Positions 56,135-64,000 of a stretch of 64,000 nucleotides of DNA are shown in pieces. The DNA is taken from NCBI RefSeq assembly GCF_000011185.1, contig NC_002689.2, positions 496,001 through 560,000 of the forward strand, read 5' to 3'. The DNA is from Thermoplasma volcanium GSS1 (GTDB lineage Archaea; Thermoplasmatota; Thermoplasmata; Thermoplasmatales; Thermoplasmataceae). The notes beneath the pieces were generated by a model that was not told the origin of the DNA, made no database searches, and worked only from the letters and a program-made list of their open reading frames with translations. Numbering within the stretch: position 1 is the first letter of the stretch; the number at the start of each line of letters is the position of its first letter. The position numbers and the translations under genes are program-made.

Positions 56135-57325
56135 ATGGAGTTCAAAACTTTGAAGAAGTATAGCGAGGCCCTTTTGGCTGGTTCAAAATTAAATTTAAAT
56201 GTACGCATGAAAGAGGTAAGATCGGATATATCTGCAGGTATGTATTCTGCGATCCCAATCTTGAGCCCTTCAGATTTTCCTCAATACGATAGAAGTGCTG
56301 TGGACGGTTTCGCAGTAAGGTACGAAGATGTGTTAAGTGCCGGCTTGAACAATCCAATTTCATTAAAACTTGTAGGAAGTATCCACGTTGGGGATGCAAA
56401 TAATATACGGATAGGAAAGAACCAATGCGCTGAAATATTTACAGGTGCAGAGGTACCTGAAGGTGCGGATGCAGTTGTTATGCAGGAAGACGCGGAGATA
56501 GAAGGTGAATATGTTGCTATATTTCGCAAAGTGAAAAAATTTCAAAATATAGGACGCAAGGGAGAAGATCTAAAGACAGGCGATAAGATCATAGACAGAG
56601 GCCAAAGAATAATGCCATGGCATATCCCAGCGTTTATAGAGACCGGAATAGAAAAGGTTAATGTATTCGATTTGAAAATTGGAGTTCTATCAACGGGAGA
56701 CGAGATAGTTTCAGGTAAAGTCAAGAACGCAAGCGCTCCAATGCTTCAAAGCCTAATTGTTCGAGATGGGTTTAATTCTGTCTTCCTGGGAAACGTCGAA
56801 GACAATGTAGAGAAAATTAGCAACGTAATTCGATCCTTTGAGGGGGATTTGTTAATCGTTACTGGCGGATCAGGCCCGAGTTCAACAGATCTAATGGATA
56901 GTATTCTCCAAAATCTTGGCCAGATCATATTTCATGGGATCAGAATGAAGCCTGGGCGGACGACAGGGCTTGCTTTAGTTAATGATAAGCCTATCTTCAC
57001 TATATCTGGTCTCCCTGTTGCGGCCTTGATAGCCTATGAAAACGTGATTCGACCGCTCATATTCAACTGGCTTTCCATAAAGGAAACGAGGCCTAACATC
57101 GTTAAGGGGGAACTTACAAGATCTATATTCAACAATGAAGCCATGAAGATGTTTGTAAGGGTTAGGCTATCCAACAAAGATGGGAAAATCTATGTTGACC
57201 CGCTGAGGACAACTGGTTCTGGCATAATCAATTCGGTAATAAATGCAGACGGCTATCTGATTATTGATGAAAACGTTGAAGGCTATCAAGAGGGGCAATT
57301 GGTAGAAGTTAAATTAATTGGGTGA
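56135..57325 (+). CDS. moeA: Molybdopterin molybdenumtransferase MoeA (1)
   Basis: A 396-residue MoeA: PQYDRSAVDGFAVR, GEDLKTGDKII, GVLSTGDEIVSG, IVTGGSGPSSTDLMDS and the C-terminal domain IV with SGLPVAAL. It inserts molybdate (or tungstate) into adenylated molybdopterin. Its TGA overlaps the frame of the next moeA; I use the ATG at 57331 for the latter. The substrate oxyanion is supplied by the ABC system at 38-41 kb. Confidence 0.92.
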   Translation: MEFKTLKKYSEALLAGSKLNLNVRMKEVRSDISAGMYSAIPILSPSDFPQYDRSAVDGFAVRYEDVLSAGLNNPISLKLVGSIHVGDANNIRIGKNQCAEIFTGAEVPEGADAVVMQEDAEIEGEYVAIFRKVKKFQNIGRKGEDLKTGDKIIDRGQRIMPWHIPAFIETGIEKVNVFDLKIGVLSTGDEIVSGKVKNASAPMLQSLIVRDGFNSVFLGNVEDNVEKISNVIRSFEGDLLIVTGGSGPSSTDLMDSILQNLGQIIFHGIRMKPGRTTGLALVNDKPIFTISGLPVAALIAYENVIRPLIFNWLSIKETRPNIVKGELTRSIFNNEAMKMFVRVRLSNKDGKIYVDPLRTTGSGIINSVINADGYLIIDENVEGYQEGQLVEVKLIG

Positions 57326-57330
57326 GCGAG

Positions 57331-59211
57331 ATGAAGATATTCCACAAGCTGGTATCGTCTGATGAAGCTAAAGAGATAATATCGCAAGAAATATCGAAGA
57401 GGATAGTATTTGAGGACAGAAAAATTTCAGATTCGGCTGGTTATGTAAGCGCAGAGGATGTCTTTTCAAAATATGACATACCTCCGTTTGACAGATCGGA
57501 AGTGGATGGTTATGCCGTATTTCATTCTGATGTAGAGGGATCAGAAGAAGACAATCCGCATCGTCTTAAACTAATTGGAAGCGTCGCTGCGGGAGACAGA
57601 AGTGCGCCATCACTGGGAACTGGAAGCTGTGTTTATGTTGCTACAGGAGCAATAATACCTAGGGGCGCAGATGCCGTAGTTATGGTAGAGGATACAAGGG
57701 CATCTGGCCAAACAGTAGAGGTATTTAGATCGGTTTATCCAGGTGAGAACATATCATACTCTGGTACAGACATATCGCTTGGTGATCTCATCCTCAAGGC
57801 TGGTACAAGGATATCCCCAGAAGCGATTGGTGCGCTTGCTGCAGCCGGAATTGATCGGGTTAAAGTCTATAAAAAAATGAAGATCGCTATACTATCCACT
57901 GGAAATGAAGTTATAGAACCTGGAAATGAATTAAAGTATGGTGAAATATTCGACACTAACAGCAATTACTTTGTGGCAAAATTAGCTACGACAGGCCTAA
58001 TCGATCCAGAGTTTATTGGTATAGCTAGGGATAATGAAGATGAGTTATCCAAACTTGTTAATGACGGACTAAAAAAATACGATGCAATAATGGCCTCAGG
58101 GTCTACCAGCGCGGGCTTTTATGATATGCTTTACAAAATAGTAGAAGAACTGGGTGGAGAGATACTGTTCCATGGGATAAACATAAAGCCAGGAAAGCCA
58201 ACGTTCTTCGGGCTCATATCCGGGCATCCGTTTTTTGGTATGCCAGGATTTCCGCTTTCATCAGCAGTGGTACTAAATTATATAGTTATTCCTGGATTTT
58301 TAAGTGCTTATGGCATTGAACACGATAACAGTATTGAGGTCAAGGTTCCATTCAGGATCAACGCAGAAAAATTACAAGAAACAATATATCCTGCCGTGTT
58401 GACAAAAAAGGGTTACGGTTTTCCTATAATGGGTAATTCAGGCTCTATTAGTAGGATGTTATACGCTGACGGACTGATGGTAATCCCAGGAGATGAAAAA
58501 TACGTTTCTCGGGATGAAAAGGTCAAATTTTACAAATTCGATGTACCACAGGCCAAGATAATATGCATTGGAAGCAGCGATCCGTTGCTGGATGAAGTCA
58601 TATTGGAAACTGATAAAAGCGCGAAGATAGTAAATGTTGGAGCATGGGGTGGAATCTCAGCAATAAAGGCAGGTGAAGCTGACGTATCAGGTATACATAT
58701 CCTTAAAAATGGCGTCTATAACATATCTGTTTATGACAACGATCTAAGGAATGTGAGTTATCTAGTAAGAGGTTACTTGAGGAATCGTGGCTTTGTATCG
58801 AAAACTGGAGTATCCAGTTTTCAGGAGATATTGGATAAAGGAATGGTGTTTGTAAATAGGAATAAAGGATCTGGCACAAGGGATCTCATAGAGGAGCTTA
58901 TAGGCAACAACGAAAGTATAAGAAAAAATATGAAAGGGTATCTCTGGGAGACAAACACCGAAGCTGGTGTTGCCAGAGCAGTAGAACAAGGACGGGCGGA
59001 TGCTGGCATAACGCTTGAGTACTACGCTATCAAACTTGGTTTAAAGTATACCCATATAAACAAAGAAAACTACGATATCCTTATCTCAAAGGAGTTCTAT
59101 GACAGCGAGTACGGTCAGGCTTTCATAAAGAACCTTAAAGGGCTAAAAGACCGAATTAAGAACTATCCTGGTTATAGTGTCCCAGACGACATAGGCGAAA
59201 TAATCTCTTAA
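57331..59211 (+). CDS. MoeA fused to a periplasmic-binding-like domain
   Basis: About 626 residues. Residues 1-400 form a complete MoeA (PPFDRSEVDGYAVF, GTDISLGDLIL, AILSTGNEVIEPG, ASGSTSAGFYDML, GMPGFPLSS). Residues 410-626 form a type 2 binding-protein-like domain (IGSSDPLLDEVI, NRNKGSGTRDLIEEL, NTEAGVARAVEQGRADAGITL), as in known archaeal MoeA/LysR-substrate-domain fusions. The fused domain has no signal peptide and must act in the cytosol, probably sensing a ligand. The start is the ATG after GGTGA; the GTG at 57322 would overlap moeA. Confidence 0.88.
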   Translation: MKIFHKLVSSDEAKEIISQEISKRIVFEDRKISDSAGYVSAEDVFSKYDIPPFDRSEVDGYAVFHSDVEGSEEDNPHRLKLIGSVAAGDRSAPSLGTGSCVYVATGAIIPRGADAVVMVEDTRASGQTVEVFRSVYPGENISYSGTDISLGDLILKAGTRISPEAIGALAAAGIDRVKVYKKMKIAILSTGNEVIEPGNELKYGEIFDTNSNYFVAKLATTGLIDPEFIGIARDNEDELSKLVNDGLKKYDAIMASGSTSAGFYDMLYKIVEELGGEILFHGINIKPGKPTFFGLISGHPFFGMPGFPLSSAVVLNYIVIPGFLSAYGIEHDNSIEVKVPFRINAEKLQETIYPAVLTKKGYGFPIMGNSGSISRMLYADGLMVIPGDEKYVSRDEKVKFYKFDVPQAKIICIGSSDPLLDEVILETDKSAKIVNVGAWGGISAIKAGEADVSGIHILKNGVYNISVYDNDLRNVSYLVRGYLRNRGFVSKTGVSSFQEILDKGMVFVNRNKGSGTRDLIEELIGNNESIRKNMKGYLWETNTEAGVARAVEQGRADAGITLEYYAIKLGLKYTHINKENYDILISKEFYDSEYGQAFIKNLKGLKDRIKNYPGYSVPDDIGEIIS

Positions 59212-59375: not shown

Positions 59376-60167
59376 TTATCCCAGCAAGTATAGGCCGGAA
59401 GAAATATTTGCAAATATGTCCTTTGTGTAATAGCCTGTAGTCAATTCTATTTTCGTTGTATCCATGGAATAATCGAATACTTTGTCATCAGTAGTTCTCC
59501 TTAGTTTACAATTGACGTTTATCTTTGCGCACAGCTCAAGTGCGAAGTCTCTTGGTGTCATCGACTTTGCTGAGGCATTGTATATCCCGTTTTTATCGAG
59601 TAACCGTATGATGTATTCCGATAGATCTGCATTGCTTATAAAATTCCTCACAACTGCGCCGCTGAGGTCTATGCTCATGTTTGCCCTTGAAAGATTAATG
59701 GTGTTAGTAAGTATGTTAGGGACACATCTTCCAGTGACGAGCCCCACCCTCAATACTAAGTCCGAATTTACATCCAGCGCCGATTCCGCCTCTAGAAAGT
59801 ACTTTCCTTCCATTGTTGGCGGATACGCATTATCGTTCTCCTTCTTCTTTCCTGGCCTTGGCTCATAAACCAGATCGCTGGATATGAATATGATCTTTTC
59901 TGTTGGATAGAGCCATTTCAGCATTTTGTTGGTTACTACTGCATAATCGTGCCTGTCTACGGTGTTAACTATGAAATCGTATTTTTTATTTTTGCGTGAT
60001 ACTAATTCGGAGAGGAGGAGATTATACTTATCTTCGCTGGGGAGGATAGCATCAACATCATACCCCTCTTCAACTAGCCTCTTCCATAAGTTGAAGCCAG
60101 CTACATTATTTGCAACAGTGATTAGGGCTCTACCCTTTTCTCTTTTTGAAATTTCTGACTGGGCCAT
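59376..60167 (-). CDS. RmlD/epimerase-like protein with degenerate NAD loop
   Basis: A 263-residue short-chain-dehydrogenase-like protein. The N-terminal strand and turn reads LITVANNVAGFNLWKRL, in which only the last glycine of the GxxGxxG cofactor loop remains. ISSDLVYEP, a Y/K-like EGKYFLEAES and RNFISNADLSEYIIRLL fit the RmlD family of dTDP-sugar reductases. It may bind no NAD, or bind it weakly. It is convergent to the MoeA fusion and divergent from the moaD-like gene. Confidence 0.65.
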   Translation of the reverse strand: MAQSEISKREKGRALITVANNVAGFNLWKRLVEEGYDVDAILPSEDKYNLLLSELVSRKNKKYDFIVNTVDRHDYAVVTNKMLKWLYPTEKIIFISSDLVYEPRPGKKKENDNAYPPTMEGKYFLEAESALDVNSDLVLRVGLVTGRCVPNILTNTINLSRANMSIDLSGAVVRNFISNADLSEYIIRLLDKNGIYNASAKSMTPRDFALELCAKINVNCKLRRTTDDKVFDYSMDTTKIELTTGYYTKDIFANISSGLYLLG

Positions 60168-60253: not shown

Positions 60254-60526
60254 ATGGGAATAATACAGGGGGATGTGTTGGACTTGAAAGTAAGAGTTAG
60301 GTATTTTGCATATTTTAAAGAAAAAGTTGGCAAGGATGAAGAGTACTTCGAACTTTCACCGGGGTCCAATGTTGGTACATTGATTAATGAAGTTATGAAG
60401 AAATACAAGAATATATTCAATCCAAAGGATACGTTGATAGCTGTTAACTACAAGTACGTCGATCAGAATTACAATATCGCAGAAGGGGATACGGTCGCGA
60501 TAATGCCTCATGTTTCTGGAGGTTAA
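60254..60526 (+). CDS. MoaD/ubiquitin-like sulfur carrier
   Basis: A 90-residue beta-grasp protein (LKVRVRYFAYFKEKVGKDEEYF) ending in the essential HVSGG. The C-terminal Gly-Gly would be thiocarboxylated by an E1-like enzyme for molybdopterin synthase, or conjugated to proteins (SAMP-like). I show the ATG at 60254, about 20 nt after a TATATATA stretch. A TTG at 60278 with ribosome site AGGGGGAT is an equally good start and gives a normal family N-terminus (MDLKVRVRYF). Confidence 0.8.
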   Translation: MGIIQGDVLDLKVRVRYFAYFKEKVGKDEEYFELSPGSNVGTLINEVMKKYKNIFNPKDTLIAVNYKYVDQNYNIAEGDTVAIMPHVSGG

Positions 60527-60600
60527 GGATTGTATGTTCGCATAAATGATATGTTAAATAATTACACTAAGCTTATATATCAATAAAATGTTATACATAT

Positions 60601-61275
60601 GTGATAGAAGGCCAAGAAAGAAATATATTAGTTGATGATTTTTTAGCTAAGTTAAGGAGGTACAAGGGAGCAAAGATTCCAAACAACGTCTCTAGAAATG
60701 AAAACTTGAATCGTATCGCGCTATCATTGAAAAGATCAGGACTTATAGATGAAATACCCTTAGAAGTAATGAAGAACGCACTAAATATATACCTGGATAA
60801 TGTTTCGCATGGCATATCGCGGGGCCGCGGATGCACTGCGGTACTTGCTGCCTGTATTCTAGTCGCGTCAAGGTCCAGCCCATCTCCTGTTACCTTAAGG
60901 TATGTCTCTAGGGCGTTAAAAATAGATCCTTCCAGGATATGGAGGACGGAGAGCTTAGTGGTCAAAAATACAAACGGCAAAAATATGGCAGTCAGGCCGA
61001 TAGATTTTATAGAGAGGTATGCTGAATCGCTTAACGTAGACGACGATGTGCGGGACGAGGCTATTGCACTTACAAATAAAATCGCCTCGCAAGTAAGCCT
61101 TATGAGAAAATCGCCATCCACTATTGCGATTTCGGCTCTTTATTTGGCGTCAATACTTAAGGACAGAAAACTAGTACAGAGGTATGTTACTAAGAAGACG
61201 GGCATAACCGAGGTAACTCTCATTAGGACTTACAAAGAAATTTACAGTTATCTTACGGGGAATCAAGCAACATAA
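60601..61275 (+). CDS. TFB-like protein consisting of cyclin repeats only
   Basis: A 224-residue protein homologous to the core of transcription factor B. Cyclin repeat 1 (about 35-125, with ISRGRGCTAVLAACILVASR) and repeat 2 (about 125-215, with KSPSTIAISALYLASIL and GITEVTLIRTYKEI) are complete. The family's N-terminal zinc ribbon and B-reader (about 100 residues) are absent. The GTG start lies 26 nt after a TATA stretch (CTTATATAT, about 60572-60580), so the short form is probably genuine. It could bind TBP and DNA without recruiting polymerase. Confidence 0.82.
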   Translation: MIEGQERNILVDDFLAKLRRYKGAKIPNNVSRNENLNRIALSLKRSGLIDEIPLEVMKNALNIYLDNVSHGISRGRGCTAVLAACILVASRSSPSPVTLRYVSRALKIDPSRIWRTESLVVKNTNGKNMAVRPIDFIERYAESLNVDDDVRDEAIALTNKIASQVSLMRKSPSTIAISALYLASILKDRKLVQRYVTKKTGITEVTLIRTYKEIYSYLTGNQAT

Positions 61276-62588: not shown

Positions 62589-63821
62589 TCAACTTTTTTC
62601 AATACTGGGTACTATGCCGTTCCACGATACCTTATACCCATATTTTTCCACGATGCTTAAAGGAAGTCCGTTGCTGTCCAGGAAGTCTATTATAGCATCT
62701 ATATCAGGATATAGTTTAGACAGTGCAGCCATCACATAATCCGCCTTTGTCTCTTTAGGTAAAGTTTTCCTGGCATAGGCTTGCACGAGAGACCAGTCGA
62801 TCTTTGAACGAAAGCGTAGAGGATAATTGCTCCAGTTTTTTGAAGGCCCGATATAAACTGTGATCCAATTATATCCGGATGCTCTTATTTTGGAATCTCT
62901 TTTCAGTATTCGATTAATATCATCATTTCTAACTATGTCGACGTATACCTTCTTTCCATCTATGTCCATCACAGAAGATGGAAAGTAAAGCCTCCCATCG
63001 ATATTTATTGGCTCCGGGTAAGTCTTATCTAACATCCCTTCTCTTTTCTCCGGAAGGTAATAGTTCAGCGATTGATCGAGCTGGACGGAGTAATCTTTTC
63101 CACCAATGCTAACAGTTGCTGAAATTGACCAACTCGAGGAACCTGCCAATAGTGAAAAGGCCTGAGCAAGCGCTGACCCATATCTATCCATACCACCGAA
63201 GATGCTGTTTGGCCCATCTATTATTACCGTCAAGCCCTCTTCGTTTAATGCTTCGAACATAAGGCCGAGTTCCTTGATTGCATCTATAAATGGCAGCCAG
63301 TTGCTCAACTTTTTGACGACCATGCTCTTCGCCTTATAAATTAGTGTTTCTATCTGTTCCAGGTTGTAATTTCTTACCAGCCAATCGGGAGTTATATCTG
63401 GCACGGAGATAAGCCTCTGTTCAGGTTCTATATCTCCGTACAGGGCGTCTTCTATCTCTTGTTTGCCTACAGAAAAATGCTTAGCAGCCATCTCAACAAG
63501 TGTATGGCGTTCCTCTGGTCTCACTGCCGGCCCTAGTGAAAAGAGGAAGCGCCTTACCTCTGAACTCGGGACCTGAAAGCTATCACGGAATTTCGATATT
63601 CTTTCAAGCAGCAGCGCCATGGATCTTACCGTTTTAGGATTCTTTGCCTGGTATTCTATATCCTTGATTCTCTCGTATAGCTCACGGCGCTTTAAGCCAA
63701 TAGATGAACGAAATGTATCTATTACGTTTTCTGCAGGCCATTTGCTGTCAGGTGGGATAACTATGGGTCTTATCGAACCGTTTTCAGTCTTTTTCGCTAC
63801 TAGTAGTTCTAGAGGGAACAC
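62589..63821 (-). CDS. bax1: Bax1 nuclease, XPB partner
   Basis: About 410 residues of the DUF790/COG3372 family, the XPB-binding nuclease first studied in T. acidophilum. The middle part has [22 protein letters not shown] and the C-terminal nuclease half has [17 protein letters not shown] start it at GTG 63819-63821 (product [11 protein letters not shown]), four bases after ribosome site GGAGGAGGA; a TTG at 63848 would add nine residues. It overlaps the end of the XPB helicase gene by 38 nt. XPB unwinds and Bax1 cuts in archaeal repair. Confidence 0.88.
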
Positions 63822-64000
63822 CTTTCCTCCTCCTTCTTGATGCCCCAAACTCTGCAGTTTGCGATGTTACGAGCTCATACATTACTGCCTTTTTTCCATA
63901 CGATGGCCGTAGTATCCTGCCGAGGCGCTGCCTAAATTGCCTTGTGCTGCCAGAACCGCTCATAACTATAGCTACAGATGCATCTGGAAAATCTACCCCT
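63784..64000 (-). CDS. xpb: XPB/Rad25 helicase, C-terminal fragment
   Basis: Only the last 71 codons are in the window; the gene continues past the right edge. The frame reads [20 protein letters not shown] then [21 protein letters not shown], which contains helicase motif VI (QRxGRxxRP), and it ends SSEKD before TGA at 63784-63786. It is the superfamily 2 helicase that works with Bax1. Confidence 0.87.

Follow-up and report, generated by a model that had tools for sequence, protein, structure and literature searches.

The genome of Thermoplasma volcanium GSS1, which encodes two full-length TFBs (TFB1 and TFB2) and one TBP, also encodes a third, shortened TFB (the short TFB) that lacks the zinc ribbon and the B-reader and, on the genomes searched, is specific to the genus Thermoplasma. 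This protein keeps the residues with which TFBs dock on TBP, carries an invariant substitution in the recognition helix of its C-terminal HTH, and has a conserved promoter of its own. Judged from its sequence, it appears to be a built-in promoter regulator, and probably a repressor. In the explanation that we favor, to which we give about an even chance of being correct, the short TFB is deficient in RNA polymerase (RNAP) recruitment, docks on TBP-promoter DNA with an altered BRE preference, and competes there with TFB1 and TFB2.

A TFB without zinc ribbon and B-reader

The gene lies in a window of 64,000 nucleotides, i.e., the whole stretch of DNA that was analyzed (positions 496,001 to 560,000 of the single-contig genome of 1,584,804 bases), and its features are listed in Table 1. 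Two tandem TFIIB cyclin repeats are present, both of which exceed the curated cut-off of the Pfam TFIIB family PF00382 (E values of 7e-8 for repeat 1 and 2.7e-11 for repeat 2), and the PDB entries 1AIS and 1D3U were matched by sequence as well as by fold. Alignment to the NCBIfam TFB model starts at position 105 of 312; therefore, the short TFB begins after the zinc ribbon and the B-reader. The 40 conserved canonical columns that are missing from it include GPEWRAF, DKGL, and ISW, and the B-reader is thereby absent. An earlier note on this DNA had described a TFB paralogue without these two elements, and the description is confirmed by Pfam, by NCBIfam, and by all five orthologues. It had further stated that the gene codes only for the two cyclin repeats. 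The repeats are indeed there, but the word "only" does not hold, since residues 1 to 33 form a B-linker-like segment rather than part of a cyclin repeat. This segment consists of a predicted helix (residues 2 to 20) followed by the B-linker-like stretch (LRRYKGAKIPNNVS), and its pattern RLKRYKGxRIPENxS..ENLNRIA can be aligned with the B-linker of canonical TFBs (LRKWQKRIKVSNAAERNL). The protein starts directly downstream of the B-reader position, and the part that aligns to the B-linker is recognizable but divergent.

Table 1. Location of the short TFB gene, its promoter elements, and its parts in the window
Feature	Positions	Strand	Remarks
Phylogenetic footprint ATATGTYAAATAATTACAYTA	60549..60569	+	Upstream of the TATA-like element; specific to the short TFB promoter
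TATA-like element TTATATAT	60573..60580	+	-28 to -21 from GTG
Zinc-ribbon-less TFB paralogue gene (short TFB)	60601..61275	+	224 aa; GTG start; end includes stop codon
N-terminal segment, residues 1-33	60601..60699	+	Alignment to 47 full-length TFBs; AlphaFold2 models
Cyclin repeat 1, residues 34-123	60700..60969	+	Five main helices; PF00382, models, Foldseek best 1ais_B and 1d3u_B
R74-G75-R76	60820..60828	+	Equivalent of human TFIIB K152-G153-R154 loop; downstream DNA/BREd side; invariant
R91	60871..60873	+	Equivalent of TFIIB R169, predicted to dock on TBP C-terminal stirrup glutamate; invariant (PMC6004067, PMC7221094)
Cyclin repeat 2, residues 133-219	60997..61257	+	PF00382; models
C-terminal HTH recognition helix, residues 204-219 (EVTLIRTYKEIYSYLT)	61210..61257	+	V283 equivalent kept; R286 equivalent is invariant Ile208

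According to AlphaFold2 models, in which the N-terminal helix is followed by a linker and two five-helix repeats, the short TFB is predicted to fold as a TFB core (mean pLDDT of 78.7 with 5 sequences and 82.8 with 28). The best solved matches in Foldseek were P. woesei TFB cores in TBP-DNA complexes (E ~1e-8), with low TM-scores (0.50 to 0.61) and pTM values (0.63 to 0.68) that make the mutual placement of the two repeats uncertain.

A missed N-terminus or a frameshift was considered as the cause of the truncation and rejected, since the GTG start and the truncation are conserved and no ribbon is encoded nearby. Upstream of the GTG, only 10 more codons are open in frame, and every orthologue has the same GTG start in the context ATATGTG. 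No ribbon-like CxxC pair was found in any frame within ~3 kb around the short TFB and the four orthologous loci, nor in the gap of 333 nt that precedes the orthologue in genome G098; the sole match to a CxxC regular expression near the short TFB is antisense, inside the aminotransferase gene. Across the genome, the only matches of the TFB zinc ribbon profile PF08271 above its cut-off were the two full-length TFBs, which lie near 1.14 Mb, ~0.58 Mb away from the short TFB. The remaining matches were below threshold, the strongest being a 116-aa TFS-like protein, and this profile search returned no free-standing TFB-type zinc ribbon in the genome. The argument that a TATA box ahead of the GTG speaks against a missed N-terminus also holds up: the orthologues have conserved the GTG and the promoter alike. 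A ribbon encoded upstream after correction of a frameshift is thus excluded, and the truncation is genuine and conserved.

Distribution and divergence

The earlier note had suggested looking for the same truncation in orthologues, and it is found in all five Thermoplasma genomes analyzed, each of which has an orthologue at the same locus without a zinc ribbon. The other orthologues are 57 to 59% identical to the protein in the window. A profile built from the five short TFBs scored 410 to 468 bits on its own members and 95.7 bits on the next-best match within Thermoplasmata (349 Thermoplasmata genomes searched), and the best matches listed outside Thermoplasma were TFBs of full length or reading frames truncated at the end of a contig. 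When 84,980 prokaryote genomes were scanned with motif seeds, hits came from Thermoplasma alone, and no short TFB outside the genus turned up among 117 genomes drawn evenly from the phylum.

The short TFB has evolved under purifying selection, with a dN/dS of ~0.05 (G098 versus G100) that is similar to those of the adjacent aminotransferase, Bax1, and moeA genes, these ratios being rough because dS is high. TFB1 and TFB2 are nearly frozen in comparison (dN/dS of 0.001 to 0.004); between T. volcanium and G098, they are 97 to 98% identical, versus 57% for the short TFB. The five short TFBs group in a single clade (100/100) when 52 cores are placed in a maximum-likelihood tree; the stem that connects them to the full-length TFBs measures ~10 changes per site, so long that the lineage is either old or very fast-diverging and that neither its parent paralogue nor its exact branching point can be placed. 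Purifying selection and the very long stem together argue that the gene is not a recent broken duplicate. More specifically, recent duplication of TFB1 or TFB2 was rejected as the origin because the single clade, with its long stem, lies outside both. A plasmid origin was also rejected, as the plasmid matches were ordinary TFBs of <30% identity, all six of those inspected being full length, and no relatives were found in viral contigs or phage records that would point to a viral origin. Separately, a very divergent full-length TFB was noted in genome G003, a member of the same order (L014, end branch of 1.59), which has three TFB matches.

TBP-docking and DNA-contacting residues

With canonical TFBs (TFB1, TFB2, and the P. 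woesei core in 1AIS/1D3U), the short TFB shares the two cyclin repeats, the TBP-docking Arg and Thr, the RGR loop, the TEVT motif of the C-terminal HTH, and, in divergent form, a B-linker-like stretch. Apart from the missing zinc ribbon and B-reader and its much faster evolution, it differs from them in being only 23 to 27% identical, in having Ile instead of the BRE-reading Arg, and in having lost the equivalent of K188. As a reference for these comparisons, we took 47 full-length TFBs and, from their alignment with the short TFB, the 95 columns in which at least 95% of them agree. All five short TFBs retain the canonical residue at 30 of these columns, and 33 are fixed in all five to a residue that is not the canonical one. 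The equivalents of R169 (R91 in the short TFB), T176 (T98), G153-R154 (G75-R76), and V283 (V205), in human TFIIB numbering, are invariant in the five proteins.

In TFIIB, V283 and R286 read the BRE, G153 and R154 contact the BREd, and K188 is a second TBP-contacting residue. The equivalent of K188 is Pro or Ala in all five short TFBs. The equivalent of R286 is Ile208 in all five, compared with Arg in 46 of the 46 canonical TFBs with residue data, and after Ile208 the canonical Asn and Arg are changed to Lys/Arg and Thr. This exchange in the recognition helix fits an altered promoter choice. On the TBP side, the substitution R169E has been reported to block association with the TBP-TATA complex (PMC6004067), and a conserved Arg and Thr of TFB contact two glutamates of the TBP stirrup (PMC7221094), the Thr presumably being the equivalent of T176. 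The sole TBP of the genome retains the stirrup EPEQFPGL. The proposal in the earlier note that such a protein could bind TBP-promoter complexes therefore meets mixed evidence: the docking Arg and Thr and the RGR loop are kept, but K188 and R286 are lost, and with 33 of the 95 columns fixed otherwise, binding to TBP could be weak or lost.

A conserved promoter

The spacing of the TATA-like element is consistent with a leaderless mRNA. From -55 to -29, 21 of 26 columns are invariant in four species, compared with 2 of 25 just farther upstream. When the same test was applied to control genes, the regions upstream of TFB1, the aminotransferase, and moeA had 0 to 2 invariant columns out of 26 and that of TFB2 had 23 of 26; strong footprints are therefore not unique to the short TFB gene. 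Exact copies of the footprinted element occur at the short TFB gene only, across five genomes, and near matches occur at the level of a reversed-pattern control, so that no regulon can be inferred. A separately footprinted promoter nevertheless fits what would be expected of a regulated gene. As for TFB2, the conservation extends over successive stretches of its upstream region (L007 8754-9695 and upstream; L062, L063, and L064), in which 18/25, 23/26, and 22/29 columns are invariant; the region upstream of TFB1 has no such conservation.

Proposed role at the promoter

The zinc ribbon is the RNAP-binding part of TFB (PMC7289017, PMC2246294); it recruits RNAP through the dock domain, and the BRE is read by the second cyclin fold (PMC7289017). 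With TBP-docking residues and no ribbon, the short TFB would therefore be expected to sit on TBP-TATA DNA and leave RNAP unrecruited, and the change in its recognition helix would be expected to shift it to different upstream sequences. The earlier note had proposed a natural dominant-negative regulator or a specialized partner of another factor, two plausible roles between which the sequence does not discriminate. In the explanation favored here, the short TFB, whose zinc ribbon and B-reader were either lost or never present, would serve as a promoter regulator and not as an initiation factor. At TATA boxes, its first cyclin repeat would dock on the only TBP of the cell, at the C-terminal stirrup, and the retained RGR loop and the changed C-terminal HTH, which would no longer read the normal BRE, would contact the DNA. 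The resulting complex of TBP, DNA, and short TFB would be unable to recruit RNAP, and at promoters with a suitable upstream sequence, it would compete with TFB1 and TFB2 and lower initiation. In a more specific form, which we put forward only tentatively and regard as somewhat doubtful, the short TFB would be a native anti-initiation factor made of a TFB core only, i.e., a basal factor that has evolved into a repressor, caps TBP-promoter complexes, follows an upstream-element code of its own, and is tuned by its own conserved promoter. Besides the possible weakening or loss of TBP binding, two points speak against competition with TFB1 and TFB2: (i) the retained B-linker-like segment is not obviously needed by a pure competitor and (ii) by analogy, the likewise truncated TFB3 of Sulfolobus is an activator rather than a repressor.

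The same protein suggests the main alternative, a serious although less likely one, namely, that the short TFB is a co-activator in trans, which would join TFB1 or TFB2 complexes and either help to open or stabilize them through its B-linker-like segment or target them to special promoters. Like the short TFB, the DNA-damage-induced TFB3 is truncated, accompanies two full-length TFBs as a third one, is restricted to its lineage, and is presumably regulatory; it cannot replace a canonical TFB yet activates together with it in trans (PMC7289017). The N-terminal segment, with RLKRYKG and ENLNRIA, ranks among the better conserved stretches of the short TFB, and the HTH is altered, not lost. However, TFB3 has the opposite truncation, keeping the zinc ribbon and lacking the B-finger and the C-terminal HTH (PMC2246294), whereas the short TFB lacks the ribbon and the reader and keeps both repeats, so the route of TFB3 to RNAP is absent here; moreover, a single TBP stirrup has room for only one TFB core at a time, unless the second core binds by a different surface.

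It is improbable that the cyclin repeats are a re-used scaffold that no longer binds TBP and instead serves as a protein adaptor or binds DNA as an ordinary regulator of the HTH type. The 33 refixed positions, the loss of K188 and R286, the very long stem, and the much faster evolution than that of TFB1 and TFB2 would all agree with such a change, but the invariance of the docking Arg, the Thr, and the RGR loop across orthologues of 57% identity is hard to explain without TBP binding. It is very improbable, too, that the short TFB is a working alternative factor for initiation and gains access to RNAP in the absence of a zinc ribbon, e.g., through its own conserved N-terminal helix and B-linker-like motif or a separate partner, as the profile search of the genome returned no free-standing TFB-type ribbon to act as one and contact between ribbon and dock domain is the established recruitment step (PMC7289017). 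That the gene, for being shorter than other TFBs, is a decaying pseudogene or an annotation artefact has next to no probability and is refuted by the conservation data, the gene being intact in five genomes down to 57% identity, with a low dN/dS and a conserved start and promoter.

Truncated TFBs are laboratory reagents for dissecting archaeal initiation. The short TFB is a natural, long-conserved, genus-wide TFB core in which TBP-docking residues are preserved and the BRE-reading residue is changed. If it caps TBP-promoter complexes, archaea would regulate initiation by a dedicated nonproductive basal factor, the reverse of the design of Sulfolobus TFB3. No description of the short TFB was found in the literature searched, which covered few subscription papers, so an earlier mention is possible. 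Among known proteins, Arabidopsis AtBRF5 is also a natural TFIIB-family member without an N-terminal zinc ribbon (PMC7865254), although it is an independent plant protein of the Brf type with a linker and one cyclin fold only. Sulfolobus TFS4, a paralogue of the TFS cleavage factor, is a duplicated basal factor turned into a negative regulator that inhibits RNAP (PMC5715097, PMC9501531). It belongs to another family and has another target, acting on RNAP, whereas the short TFB would act on the TBP-promoter complex.

Genomic context

In genomes G098, G099, and G100, the gene order is XPB helicase, Bax1 (DUF790), aminotransferase, MoaD, short TFB, an epimerase-like protein, and two moeA genes. 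The same neighborhood is found in the window, but the pair of MoaD and short TFB (60254-61275) is inverted relative to its neighbors when compared with the corresponding loci of other Thermoplasma (L046, L047, and L048). The XPB helicase and Bax1 (DUF790) of this conserved neighborhood lie at 62589-64000 of the window and at 2877-5550 of L046. Given that Sulfolobus TFB3 is induced by DNA damage, a link to repair via XPB-Bax1 is conceivable by analogy, the conserved proximity of the genes being all that points to it. The epimerase-like protein (window 59376-60167), which had no Pfam match at E <= 1e-4, adjoins the short TFB in the Thermoplasma loci inspected. Farther along, two adjacent moeA genes occupy 56135-59211 of the window, the second of which has a C-terminal PBP_like domain (substrate-binding type).
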